Shown: positions 8,994 through 22,894 of the stretch, piece by piece
How positions within the stretch are numbered: position 1 is the stretch's first letter
Layout: each line of letters opens with the position of its first letter
Source of the DNA: Flavobacterium psychrophilum
Lineage (GTDB): Bacteria > Bacteroidota > Bacteroidia > Flavobacteriales > Flavobacteriaceae
Assembly (NCBI GenBank): GCA_945905915.1
Contig: CAMDQL010000006.1
Coordinates: 1-43,852 of the forward strand
Reading direction: 5' to 3'
DNA: 43,852 bases
Position numbers and translations under genes: made by a program
Notes under the pieces: model-generated
What the model was told of the DNA's origin: nothing
Databases searched by the model: none
What the model saw: the letters and a program-made list of their open reading frames with translations, nothing else

Positions 8994-9012
8994 TTTTAAA
9001 AAGAGGGAAAAA

Positions 9013-9040
9013 CTCATAACTCATAACTCATAACTCATAA
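9013..9040 (+). repeat. 7-bp tandem repeat (CTCATAA) x4 upstream of ileS
   Basis: Four exact copies of CTCATAA in a row, followed by CT. The array ends 8 bp before a near-consensus -7 box (TACTTTCG, 9049-9056), so it occupies the place where a -33 region would be. Confidence 0.9.
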
Positions 9041-9081
9041 CTATTTATTACTTTCGCAAATGGATTTAAGTAAGCGACAAA

Positions 9082-12000
9082 ATGAGTACAAAATTTACTG
9101 AATACAAAGGACTTGACTTGCCAACAGTTGCATCAGAAGTTCTTGATTTTTGGAAAAAAAACCACATCTTTGAACAATCGGTAACTTCTCGTGAAGGAGC
9201 TACACCCTACGTGTTTTTTGAAGGGCCACCATCTGCAAATGGTTTGCCTGGAATTCACCACGTAATGGCGCGCGCGATTAAAGATATTTTTTGTCGTTAT
9301 AAAACTCAAAAAGGCTACCAAGTTAAACGAAAAGCGGGTTGGGATACACACGGCTTGCCTGTAGAATTAGGTACCGAAAAAGAATTGGGTATCACCAAAG
9401 AAGACATCGGAAAGACCATTTCAGTTACCGAATACAACGAAGCATGTAAAAAAACGGTGATGCGTTATACAGACGTTTGGAACGACTTAACTGAAAAAAT
9501 GGGCTATTGGGTAGATATGGAAGATCCGTATGTGACTTACAAATCCAAATATATGGAATCGGTTTGGTGGTTGCTAAAACAAATTTATAACAAACATTTG
9601 CTTTACAAAGGGTACACCATTCAACCGTATTCGCCAAAAGCAGGAACAGGTTTGTCTTCGCACGAAGTCAATCAGCCTGGTTCGTATCGTGATGTTACGG
9701 ATACGACTGTAGTAGCGCAATTTAAAACTAAAAACGAAACGTTACCAAGCTTTTTACAAAGTTTTGGAGACATACATATTTTAGCTTGGACGACTACGCC
9801 TTGGACGTTGCCAAGTAATACTGCATTAACTGTTGGACCAAAAATCGATTATGTTTTAGTTCAAACGTTCAATCAATATACTTTTGAACCTGTAAACGTT
9901 ATTCTAGCTAAGAATTTAGTAGGAAAACAGTTTGGAAAAGGATTTTTTGAAAGTGATGACTTTTTTGACTTTTTTAATATTCCTAAAAAAGTTGATACTG
10001 ATTCAGTAAATATCCAAGCTATAAAAGAGATATATTCTACCAAAGAAGTTGATGGTGTTGTTGATTTTATTAATTTAATGAAAAACATAAACACAAAATT
10101 ACCTTATAGAGTATTAAGTGAATGTAAAGGTTCAGATTTAGTCGGAATTCGTTACGAACAATTAATGCCATTAGCGTTACCGTATCAAAACCCTGAAAAT
10201 GCATTCAGAGTAATTTCAGGAGATTTCGTAACTACCGAAGACGGAACTGGAATTGTACACACCGCACCTACTTTTGGAGCTGATGACGCTAAAGTTGCTA
10301 AAGAAGCCACTCCAGAAGTGCCGCCAATGTTGGTTTTAGATGAAAATGGAAACGCAGTTCCTTTAGTAGATTTACAAGGAAAATTTATTCAAAATTTAGG
10401 CGAATATTCTGGTAAATATGTTAAAAACGAATATTACAACGAAGGCGAAGCGCCAGAACGCTCTGCCGATGTAGAAATTGCTATACAATTAAAAGAAGAA
10501 AACAAAGCCTTTAAGGTTGAAAAATACGTTCACAGTTACCCACATTGTTGGCGAACAGACAAACCTATTTTATATTATCCTTTAGATTCTTGGTTCATTA
10601 AAGTAACAGAAATCAAAGACCGAATGTTCGACTTAAACGAAACCATCAACTGGAAGCCAAAAGCTACTGGAGAAGGTCGTTTTGGGAATTGGCTAAAAAA
10701 CGCCAACGATTGGAACTTATCGCGTTCAAGATATTGGGGAATTCCTTTGCCAATATGGAGAAATGAAGAAGGCACAGAAGAAATTTTAGTAGGTTCTGTA
10801 GCAGAATTAGTTCAAGAAATTGAAAAAGCAATTGCCGCTGGATTTATGACTGAAAATCCATTTAAAGGATTCGAAATCGGAAATATGACTGAAGAAAATT
10901 ACGATTTAGTGGATTTACACAAAAATGTGGTGGACGAAATCGTATTAGTTTCAGCATCAGGGAAACCGATGAATCGTGAAACCGATTTAATTGATGTTTG
11001 GTTCGATTCGGGCGCAATGCCCTATGCACAATGGCATTATCCTTTTGAAAATTTAGATTTAATTGACGAAAACAAAGCATTTCCTGCCGATTTCATTGCA
11101 GAAGGAGTAGATCAAACGCGTGGTTGGTTTTATACACTTCATGCTATTGGAACCTTAGTTTTTGATAAAATTGCCTATAAAAATGTAGTTTCAAATGGAT
11201 TAGTATTAGATAAAAACGGACAAAAAATGTCAAAACGTTTAGGTAATGCCGTCGATCCATTTACTACTTTGGCAGAATATGGTCCAGATGCAACGCGTTG
11301 GTACATGATTTCAAATGCGAACCCATGGGACAACCTAAAATTTGATATCGAAGGAGTAGCTGAGGTGCGAAGAAAATTCTTTGGAACACTTTATAATACC
11401 TATTCGTTCTTTGCTTTATATGCAAATATTGACGGGTTTACCTATGCTGAAGCAGAAATTCCGTTAGCGGAACGACCTGAAATTGACCGTTGGATTTTAT
11501 CGGAATTACATACTTTAATTCAAGTTGTGGATGAAGCGTATGCCGATTATGAGCCAACCAAAGCTGCACGTGCGATTTCTGATTTTGTTCAGGAAAACCT
11601 TAGTAACTGGTATGTTCGTTTGTGTAGAAGACGTTTCTGGAAAGGCGAATATGCGCAAGATAAAATTGCTGCCTATCAAACGCTTTATACGTGTTTAGTT
11701 ACGGTTTCTAAGTTAAGCGCACCAATTGCTCCATTTTTCATGGACAAACTTTACAAAGATTTAACTCAAGCAACAGCTACAGAAAAATCAAACAGTGTAC
11801 ATTTGGCCCTGTTTCCAGTTTCGGTTGAAAACTTTGTTGATAAATCGCTGGAAAGCAAAATGTTAAAGGCGCAAACCATTTCATCATTGGTATTGTCGCT
11901 GCGTAAAAAAGAAATGATTAAAGTGCGTCAACCATTGCAAAAGGTAATGATTCCAGTACTTGACAATGTATTTAGAGCAGAAGTTGAAGCCATTTCAGAC

Positions 12001-12582
12001 CTGATAAAAGCGGAGGTAAACGTAAAAGAAATTGACCTTTTAGACGATGCATCAGGCGTTTTGGTGAAACAAATAAAGCCTAATTTTAAAACACTTGGGC
12101 CGCGTTTTGGAAAAGATATGGGACTGATTTCCAAAGAGATACAAAATTTAAACCAAGAACAAATCAATCAATTAGATAGAGAAAATCCGTTGGAAATTAG
12201 TATATCAGGAAAAAGCATAACTTTAACATCCGACGATGTGGAGATTACTTCGCAAGATATTCCGGGGTGGTTAGTAGCTAATGCAAACGGAATAACTGTA
12301 GCGTTAGACATTACCATTTCTGAAGAATTACGTAAGGAAGGGATAGCGAGAGAGTTGGTGAATCGTATTCAAAACATCAGAAAAGATTCAGGATTTGAAG
12401 TGACCGATAAAATTGTGGTAAAAATGTTAAAAAATCCGCAAATAGAAGAAGCGGTAGCCGTTAATTCAGAGTATATTAAATCGGAAACATTAACAAAAAC
12501 CCTACTTTTTGAAGATAAAATTGAAAATGGTATAGAAATTGAGTTTGACGATATAAAAACAAGTATATTCATTTCAAAATAA
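9082..12582 (+). CDS. ileS: isoleucyl-tRNA synthetase, type 2 (eukaryote-like), with GIHH signature
   Basis: A 1166-aa class I synthetase that charges tRNA-Ile. The Rossmann half begins with GPPSANGLPGIHH (residues 48-60), where the usual HIGH is replaced by Gly57-Ile58-His59-His60. KMSKR is at 715-719. The CP1 editing domain is present, with TTTPWTLPSNTALTVGP and GTGIVHTAPTFGADD, so proofreading looks intact. The anticodon-binding domain (WILSELHTLIQ, ENLSNWYVRLCRRRFW) and a long C-terminal extension follow. KMSKR, the great length and the absence of a C-terminal Cys4 zinc site fit the type 2 class. Type 2 enzymes are known for low mupirocin sensitivity. It is probably transcribed from a weak -7 box just downstream of a CTCATAA array. 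Confidence 0.95.
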   Translation: MSTKFTEYKGLDLPTVASEVLDFWKKNHIFEQSVTSREGATPYVFFEGPPSANGLPGIHHVMARAIKDIFCRYKTQKGYQVKRKAGWDTHGLPVELGTEKELGITKEDIGKTISVTEYNEACKKTVMRYTDVWNDLTEKMGYWVDMEDPYVTYKSKYMESVWWLLKQIYNKHLLYKGYTIQPYSPKAGTGLSSHEVNQPGSYRDVTDTTVVAQFKTKNETLPSFLQSFGDIHILAWTTTPWTLPSNTALTVGPKIDYVLVQTFNQYTFEPVNVILAKNLVGKQFGKGFFESDDFFDFFNIPKKVDTDSVNIQAIKEIYSTKEVDGVVDFINLMKNINTKLPYRVLSECKGSDLVGIRYEQLMPLALPYQNPENAFRVISGDFVTTEDGTGIVHTAPTFGADDAKVAKEATPEVPPMLVLDENGNAVPLVDLQGKFIQNLGEYSGKYVKNEYYNEGEAPERSADVEIAIQLKEENKAFKVEKYVHSYPHCWRTDKPILYYPLDSWFIKVTEIKDRMFDLNETINWKPKATGEGRFGNWLKNANDWNLSRSRYWGIPLPIWRNEEGTEEILVGSVAELVQEIEKAIAAGFMTENPFKGFEIGNMTEENYDLVDLHKNVVDEIVLVSASGKPMNRETDLIDVWFDSGAMPYAQWHYPFENLDLIDENKAFPADFIAEGVDQTRGWFYTLHAIGTLVFDKIAYKNVVSNGLVLDKNGQKMSKRLGNAVDPFTTLAEYGPDATRWYMISNANPWDNLKFDIEGVAEVRRKFFGTLYNTYSFFALYANIDGFTYAEAEIPLAERPEIDRWILSELHTLIQVVDEAYADYEPTKAARAISDFVQENLSNWYVRLCRRRFWKGEYAQDKIAAYQTLYTCLVTVSKLSAPIAPFFMDKLYKDLTQATATEKSNSVHLALFPVSVENFVDKSLESKMLKAQTISSLVLSLRKKEMIKVRQPLQKVMIPVLDNVFRAEVEAISDLIKAEVNVKEIDLLDDASGVLVKQIKPNFKTLGPRFGKDMGLISKEIQNLNQEQINQLDRENPLEISISGKSITLTSDDVEITSQDIPGWLVANANGITVALDITISEELRKEGIARELVNRIQNIRKDSGFEVTDKIVVKMLKNPQIEEAVAVNSEYIKSETLTKTLLFEDKIENGIEIEFDDIKTSIFISK

Positions 12583-12627: not shown

Positions 12628-13008
12628 ATGATAGAGGAGCAATTAAGATATTCAGACGCAGATTTAGCAGAATTCAAAGCATTAATTCATGCTAAATTAG
12701 AAAAGGCAAAAGGAGACTTAGAACTTATTAAAAGTGCCTATATGAATGATTTAAATAATGGAACTGATGACACATCGCCAACATTTAAAGCGTTTGAAGA
12801 AGGCAGTGAAACTATGAGTAAAGAGGCAAATTCACAATTGGCCATTCGTCAAGAAAAGTTTATAAGAGATTTAAAAAATGCCTTAATTCGTATTGAAAAT
12901 AAAACCTACGGATTATGTAAAGTTACAGGCAAATTAATTAATAAAGAACGTTTAAAAATCGTTCCTCATGCCACAATGAGTATCGAAGCAAAAAATTTGC
13001 AACGTTAA
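12628..13008 (+). CDS. DksA/TraR-like zinc-finger-family protein with degenerate zinc site
   Basis: A 126-aa protein with an N-terminal coiled coil (about residues 8-90) and the DksA/TraR C-terminal block YGLCKVTGKLINKERLKIVPHA. DksA binds the RNA polymerase secondary channel and tunes transcription with ppGpp; whether this one does is unknown. Of the four zinc-binding cysteines only Cys97 remains: the other positions are Thr100, Ser118 and Ala121. It sits 45 bp after ileS and before lspA, an order I recognise from Flavobacteriia, and is followed by a strong terminator. Confidence 0.88.
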   Translation: MIEEQLRYSDADLAEFKALIHAKLEKAKGDLELIKSAYMNDLNNGTDDTSPTFKAFEEGSETMSKEANSQLAIRQEKFIRDLKNALIRIENKTYGLCKVTGKLINKERLKIVPHATMSIEAKNLQR

Positions 13009-13068: not shown

Positions 13069-13076
13069 TATTTTTG
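13069..13076 (+). promoter_or_regulatory. -7 box (TATTTTTG) for lspA
   Basis: An exact TAnnTTTG match, 15 bp before the ATG at 13092. It overlaps the further upstream in-frame start at 13074, which supports 13092 as the true start. Confidence 0.6.
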
Positions 13077-13091
13077 CTAAAAATTTTGCAA

Positions 13092-13715
13092 ATGTCTTTA
13101 AAGAAAGCCTACTTACTAATCATTAGTATTTTATTAATCGATCAAATTTCAAAAATCTACATCAAGACGCATTTTTTCATTAATGAAGAAGTAAAAGTGT
13201 TTGATTGGTTTCGAATTCATTTTATCGAGAATGAAGGTATGGCTTGGGGTGCTGAAATTCCAGGAGCATATGGCAAATTGATTTTAACTTTGTTTAGAAT
13301 TATTGCAGTTGGCGGTATTGCTTGGTGGTTGTGGGATTCGGTTAGAAAACAAGCCTCAAATTTTCTTATTGTAGCGGTTGCATTAATTTTTACGGGCGCC
13401 TTAGGAAATATTATAGATTCGGTTTTTTATGGCGTAATTTTTAATGATAGTTACCATCAAGTAGCAACAGCTTTTTCAGACCAACCTTATGGCACTTGGT
13501 TTCATGGTGAAGTAGTAGATATGTTTTATTTCCCAATGTGGGATGGAAATTTACCCTCTTGGTTACCATTTTGGGGCGGAAAACACTTTACTTTTTTTAA
13601 TGCTATTTTTAATATAGCTGATATGGCAATTTCTACCGGTGTTGGGATTTTAATTGTGTTCAACAAAAGAGCTTTTGCGGCATCAAAAGAAGAAGCGCAT
13701 TTTACAGAAGATTAA
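13092..13715 (+). CDS. lspA: lipoprotein signal peptidase II
   Basis: A 207-aa inner-membrane aspartyl protease that removes signal peptides from prolipoproteins. Four hydrophobic segments are visible. Conserved pieces are NEGMAWG (about residues 47-53), GALGNIID (102-109), VVD with Asp143 and FNIAD with Asp177; the two Asp are the catalytic pair by family comparison. Compared with E. coli LspA (164 aa) there is an insertion of about 25-30 residues between GNIID and VVD and another before FNIAD, and the usual DR after GN is DS. These are probably class-typical. The stop overlaps the convergent cyclo-ligase gene by 4 bp. Confidence 0.94.
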   Translation: MSLKKAYLLIISILLIDQISKIYIKTHFFINEEVKVFDWFRIHFIENEGMAWGAEIPGAYGKLILTLFRIIAVGGIAWWLWDSVRKQASNFLIVAVALIFTGALGNIIDSVFYGVIFNDSYHQVATAFSDQPYGTWFHGEVVDMFYFPMWDGNLPSWLPFWGGKHFTFFNAIFNIADMAISTGVGILIVFNKRAFAASKEEAHFTED

Positions 13716-22378: not shown

Positions 22379-22894
22379 TTAGCGAATTAATGAATAAGCG
22401 AATGAGCGAATTCATATATGATCTAATTGACTAATCCGGTAGTTAACTAATTTTTAAATGAAATTCACAAACAGTTCAAAATATCAAAACAACCCTATCT
22501 TGAAAGAATCTTTTGAGTTCGCAATAATGGTTGTAAAATATGCAGAATTGCTTGATGAAAAAAGAAAATATATAATAGCAAAACAATTAGTTCGTTCTGG
22601 AACATCTGTAGGTGCAAATATCAAAGAAGCTCAAAATGCAGAAAGCAAAGCTGATTTTATTCACAAACTTAAAGTTTCATTAAAAGAAGCTGACGAAACA
22701 GAATATTGGCTTTTTCTATGTGAAAATTTAGAAAATTACCCAAATCCAGAGGGGTTAATTGAAAAATTAAATGGAATAATAAAAATGTTAAACAAAATAA
22801 TTAGTACATCGAAAAATAATATACAAATTAAAAATTAGCGAGAACAAAATAGGTATCTATTCGCTAATTATCTAATTCGCATATTCGCTAATTA
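22376..22894. mobile_element. putative four-helix-bundle cassette bounded by inverted repeats
   Basis: TAATTAGCGAAT at 22376-22387 (overlapping the hmgA stop) is found in exact reverse complement at 22883-22894, 18 bp before the hppD start, and once more at 22859-22870. Further GCGAAT units lie near both ends. The whole 519-bp segment contains one gene, a TIGR02436-type four-helix-bundle protein. No transposase is present. The idea that it is an inserted cassette is inference. Confidence 0.45.
22458..22838 (+). CDS. four-helix-bundle protein (TIGR02436 / 23S rRNA intervening-sequence protein family)
   Basis: A 126-aa all-helical protein. KQLVRSGTSVGANIKEAQNAES (about residues 43-64) and DFIHKLKVSLKEADETEYWL (about residues 66-85) are the family hallmarks. 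Relatives are encoded in intervening sequences of some 23S rRNA genes, act as accessory protein Avd in diversity-generating retroelements, or stand alone in Bacteroidota with no known role. They are basic and form pentamers, which suggests nucleic acid binding. Here it sits alone between hmgA and hppD, in the same direction, inside a pair of inverted repeats. No reverse transcriptase or rRNA is nearby. Confidence 0.92.
   Translation: MKFTNSSKYQNNPILKESFEFAIMVVKYAELLDEKRKYIIAKQLVRSGTSVGANIKEAQNAESKADFIHKLKVSLKEADETEYWLFLCENLENYPNPEGLIEKLNGIIKMLNKIISTSKNNIQIKN

Follow-up and report, generated by a model that had tools for sequence, protein, structure and literature searches.

The isoleucyl-tRNA synthetase (IleRS) encoded in the window, by which we mean the complete stretch of 43,852 nucleotides analyzed here, is in all likelihood the housekeeping type 2 IleRS of a Flavobacterium and belongs to the published GXHH kind, for which very weak inhibition by mupirocin is predicted. 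The first class I signature of this enzyme reads GIHH, so that the first and third residues of HXGH are exchanged. As part of the same well-supported explanation, the swapped motif was inherited across the phylum, by inference the Bacteroidota, and did not arrive through acquisition of a resistance gene. The features on which this account is based are the following:

9082..12582, + strand: ileS, type 2 isoleucyl-tRNA synthetase of 1166 aa, with ATG start and matches to TIGR00392, PF00133, PF08264 and PF19302
9250..9261, + strand: GIHH at the class I HXGH position (residues 57-60), placed by alignment to 8c8u/8c8w and kept in all relatives read
9934..10125, + strand: loop B in its long form (64 aa, residues 285-348), seen in the alignment of relatives and assigned to the CP1 editing domain by position
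11224..11238, + strand: KMSKR, the second class I signature (residues 715-719), read from the sequence
12628..13008, + strand: dksA/traR-like gene, next downstream of ileS, with NCBIfam DksA/YteA matches below cut-off
13074..13715, + strand: lspA, lipoprotein signal peptidase, with NF011369 at 315.1 bits, above the cut-off of 200

The ileS reading frame matches the NCBIfam model TIGR00392 (isoleucine--tRNA ligase) with 989.3 bits, well beyond the curated cut-off of 621.4. The sequence FEGPPSANGLPGIHHVMAR puts LPGIHH at residues 55-60 of its product (DNA 9244-9261). Aligned to solved structures, GIHH occupies the column of HVGH in 8c8u and of GVHH in 8c8w. The first-pass annotation of this DNA had reported the swapped HIGH order at these residues together with KMSKR at 715-719, and both readings were confirmed, the former by its alignment at the true HIGH position and the latter by the translation of the reading frame. 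It had also named a canonical HxGH elsewhere in the protein as evidence that would speak against the swap. A scan of the whole 1166-aa protein found no HxGH, and this objection therefore fails. The GIHH swap in the window IleRS is real.

The search of solved structures also gave the type of the enzyme. The best matches were the entries of Priestia megaterium IleRS2 (PmIleRS2) with 779-792 bits, headed by the GVHH mutant 8c8w (792), and were followed by 1ile with 701 bits, which we take to be the entry of T. thermophilus IleRS. Eukaryotic cytoplasmic IleRS scored 580-630 bits, the PmIleRS1 entries 8c9e and 8c9f reached 277 and 285 bits, and further structures, presumably all type 1 enzymes, were found at 213-291 bits. 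Since GIHH falls on the HVGH/GVHH position of PmIleRS2 and PmIleRS1, the type 1 counterpart from P. megaterium, attains only 277-285 bits, the window enzyme is, judged by score, a type 2 IleRS in which the swap is genuine. The comparison with type 1, type 2 and GXHH structures proposed in the first-pass annotation thus agrees with its assignment of the protein to type 2 IleRS with GXHH: type 2 is closest, and GIHH lies on the GVHH of mutant 8c8w. Non-canonical type 2 IleRS are recognized by a G/AXHH motif, a closer relationship to type 2 than to type 1 and a KMSKS-type second signature, and all three are present here. A structure prediction from an alignment of 28 sequences, of which the 27 others are 74-97% identical to the window IleRS, had a mean pLDDT of 55, with most of the catalytic domain below 50.

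The motif is uniform among relatives. G[I/V]HH was read in 199 of 199 aligned loci, in 35 of 35 further loci and in all of 122 proteins (121 homologs and the window), three sets which overlap in part, are not additive and consist partly of best matches, favouring close relatives. An even sample is provided by 99 genomes of the phylum, composed of 30 (L001 and L111-L139), 34 new ones (L160-L194, where L188 repeats the genome of L139) and 35 (L200-L234). That this phylum is Bacteroidota, taken in its wide sense, is deduced from those relatives which are named as Flavobacterium. All 99 genomes carry the swapped motif (GIHH in 73, GVHH in 26) and none has HXGH. A search with a simple expression found the motif in 109 of 110 loci and missed L018; the alignment reads it there too, giving 110 of 110. 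A sequencing or assembly error at GIHH, for which we found nothing in favour, has a negligible probability and was rejected on the grounds that the same motif recurs in the 199 and 35 loci. Since every phylum genome read has the swap, the idea that it distinguishes this particular organism was not borne out. Natural G/AXHH type 2 IleRS were described in 2023 (PMC10485003), and GXHH was therefore already known. The GIHH trait is thus not novel, nor is it confined to this organism, and noticing it was a correct but ordinary observation. The second signature varies more, being KMSKR, KMSKS, KMSKT or KMAKS in relatives. Within the window's class, 23 of 25 genomes in the phylum sample carry KMSKR, and of the 39 read from other classes 35 carry KMSKS. 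IKMSKSKG replaces QKMSKRLG (window site 11221-11238) in 14 of 200 aligned rows, some of them from the genus Flavobacterium.

The window ileS is very probably the sole ileS of its organism, judging from the genomes of relatives. In a sample of 61 genomes of the genus, 60 have a single gene that scores above the TIGR00392 cut-off, and the 61st holds a piece of ileS near a contig end. The phylum sample contains exactly one ileS match at E<=1e-150 in each of the 99 genomes, a count that would miss a second copy split between contigs or one with an E-value above 1e-150. The IleRS of E. coli and B. subtilis, which we take to be type 1 enzymes, exceed the TIGR00392 cut-off in the same search, so that an intact second gene of type 1 would normally show. 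The earlier statement that this is the only visible ileS is accordingly very probable, with the relatives as its basis. One ileS match of the phylum sample (G157:C5:3383-5968) contains a single in-frame TAG.

The gene order in the window is porZ, recO, ileS, dksA/traR-like gene and lspA. Among 80 fetched loci of relatives, the 66 over 13 kb were searched for these neighbours (E<=1e-8, recording presence and not order), and matches were obtained for the dksA/traR-like gene in 66, lspA in 64, recO in 53 and porZ in 42. The housekeeping context claimed in the first-pass annotation is therefore upheld, as far as presence is concerned. Family scans of 36 of the 38 ORFs listed for the window returned ordinary genes of the chromosome and one PF05635 gene, left two ORFs unmatched and gave no transposase or integrase family among these 36. 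This bears on the alternative that ileS was acquired on mobile DNA as a mupirocin-resistance gene of the mupA/mupB type. The MupA and MupB models do match the protein, at 722.7 and 746.3 bits, but these scores are far under the cut-offs of 1900 bits (NF000257 / NF000258). Furthermore, relatives hold a single ileS of the same kind beside the same neighbours, and the scanned ORFs are free of mobile-element families. On these grounds an acquired MupA or MupB was rejected as highly improbable.

Two other sites in the window were recorded. The PF05635 gene (22458-22838) encodes a small protein of the 23S rRNA-intervening-sequence type, and lies between homogentisate dioxygenase-like and HPPD-like genes. 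Short AATTAGCG-type repeats, oriented in opposite directions, border this gene on its two sides, and it may be a cassette that was inserted here. Just upstream of ileS (9011-9042), the heptamer AACTCAT is perfectly repeated in tandem with 4.6 copies. An exact search recovered this repeat in one of 234 fetched loci (L015), most of the loci from L140 on having little or no upstream DNA.

Within ileS, loop B varies in length. Its placement in CP1 follows from its position just before the structure matches at residues 354-425, whose chains we take to be the IleRS editing domain. The GC content over 9961-10110 in this loop is 0.23, compared with 0.36 for the whole gene, and the long loop accounts for the 33 codons by which the window ileS exceeds the commonest form (1133 aa). 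Among the 122 proteins, loop B has 31 aa in 98, 64-65 aa in ten including the window, 107 aa in two, 76 aa in one, 41 aa in one and 35 aa in two, with eight unread; a separate tally of loop lengths covers 142 of 200 aligned rows, the others being rows in which no loop anchors were found. The protein P0003 is 99% identical to the window outside both variable loops and has a short loop B. Over residues 280-345, P0001 shares 94% and P0002 58% identity with the window. On a tree built without the loops, the long class (13 rows of 64-65, 76 or 107 aa) needs eight changes, and at least seven when only well-supported branches are trusted; this tree was built quickly, comprised 116 rows and resolved 59 of its 111 inner branches, leaving 52 unresolved. 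Six of the 122 proteins (P0038, P0041, P0060, P0068, P0109 and P0119), in which the loop anchors were not found, were left out of it. Taken together, the likeliest reading of these alignments is that the loop is tolerated and has passed between Flavobacterium by recombination; repeated loss of the long form may also be involved. The long loop B, scattered among near-identical Flavobacterium enzymes, is perhaps more interesting than the motif. The second variable loop (residues 215-233) has 19 aa in 118 of the 122 proteins, 33 aa in P0055 and P0062 and 43 aa in P0060 and P0119. The form in P0055 reads SPLTPEGG...GLGEA and looks to us like a translated repeat element.

The statement in the first-pass annotation that a GXHH variant of type 2 IleRS had been described as hyper-resistant is correct. 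Brkic et al. 2023 (PMC10485003) classified 86 of 379 IleRS sequences as G/AXHH type 2 and linked the motif to mupirocin Ki values reaching into the mM range. Neither 'Bacteroid' nor 'Flavobacter' appears in the main text of that article. The published Ki of PmIleRS1 is 0.29 nM. The natural ALHH enzyme DrIleRS2 has a Ki of 6.6 mM, which dropped 823-fold once HVGH was introduced, and with the opposite exchange to GVHH the Ki of PmIleRS2 rose from 1.08 to 460 µM and that of TtIleRS2 from 0.20 to 35 µM (PMC10485003). The explanation given there is a shifted HIGH helix with the third His replacing the first in catalysis, and a modelled clash of this His with mupirocin. Applied to the window, the IleRS would activate isoleucine with ATP and charge tRNA-Ile, and the third-position His of GIHH would do in catalysis what the first His does in HXGH enzymes, as proposed from the PmIleRS2 mutant structures. 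The same His would, according to the modelling, clash with mupirocin at the ATP/Ile site and thereby lead to very weak inhibition, with a predicted Ki between tens of µM and mM. The predicted insensitivity at the enzyme level is well grounded in the published kinetics of other enzymes; the literature searched held no mupirocin inhibition values for a Flavobacterium IleRS.

Evidence from whole cells is thin and divided, and insensitivity to mupirocin at that level is not established. One of the organisms concerned bears the name 'Flavobacterium resinovorum', which we assume is now placed outside the genus. In tests with discs of 200 µg mupirocin, F. hydatis (two rows), F. resinovorum (one) and F. 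tirrenicum (one) are listed without resistance, whereas resistance is recorded for Chryseobacterium balustinum and Sphingobacterium multivorum (PMC5884911). The test separates poorly: rows of Pseudomonas fluorescens, Bacillus and Streptococcus are also without resistance, and P. fragi, Stenotrophomonas rhizophila, two Microbacterium and one Paenibacillus are resistant (PMC5884911). Uptake, identification and breakpoints could matter for these disc results. Mupirocin was predicted to raise the diversity of Bacteroidaceae on culture media (PMC13085705), which weakly favours tolerance in the phylum. A further study examined mupirocin on Staphylococcaceae (PMC7564983) and, given these organisms, has no bearing here.

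Why the motif exists is a separate matter. It may be a trait of the lineage with no role in resistance, that is, an alternative catalytic solution fixed early, with insensitivity as a by-product; such an account shares identity and chemistry with our best explanation and differs only in the reason for the motif. The occurrence of the swap in all 99 sampled genomes, each with one ileS match, speaks for it, as recent, patchy selection would hardly be expected to leave the phylum so uniform, although ancient selection by IleRS inhibitors would give the same pattern. The catalytic efficiency of DrIleRS2, whose non-canonical motif is natural, is reported as equal to that of canonical IleRS2, but the activity of canonical IleRS2 fell by up to about 10-fold when GVHH was introduced, and the motif is read as resistance-driven in the same article (PMC10485003). 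We therefore consider an origin without resistance conceivable but somewhat doubtful. The wider proposition can be put forward only tentatively, namely that GXHH is the fixed and sole IleRS active site throughout the phylum, representing ancient alternative catalysis in which insensitivity is more a by-product of descent than an adaptation. If this is true, the whole phylum would offer a natural test of whether a class I synthetase can manage without the HIGH order.

Regarding our explanation as a whole, an inherited housekeeping type 2 IleRS, the finding adds little to knowledge, because both the motif and its connection with mupirocin hyper-resistance had appeared in print in 2023; the survey of 99 phylum genomes sharpens one point. 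As all of these have the swapped motif and a single ileS match, mupirocin-type inhibitors are expected to act poorly on the enzyme throughout the group. For the same reason, a mupirocin-resistance call on IleRS in resistome analyses of such genomes may mark an ordinary housekeeping gene, and the IleRS row in the Ornithobacterium table of PMC10835994 could be a case of this kind.

Among known systems, the natural G/AXHH type 2 IleRS, described for Streptomyces griseus and Deinococcus radiodurans (PMC10485003), resemble the window enzyme in the exchange of the first and third HXGH residues, in type and in being widespread housekeeping enzymes. The difference is that DrIleRS2 carries ALHH with a measured Ki (PMC10485003), whereas the window enzyme carries GIHH and its inhibition is predicted. 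The closest solved structures are those of PmIleRS2 and its mutants (8c8u, 8c8v, 8c8w and 8c9d), of which 8c8w has GVHH at the same place. Natural PmIleRS2, in contrast, reads HVGH, and it has 17 residues between two aligned stretches which are separated by 77 in the window IleRS. MupA and MupB are IleRS relatives with a likeness to the window enzyme over the catalytic core, from which the latter is set apart by scores far below both model cut-offs and by its nature as a housekeeping gene with conserved neighbours.
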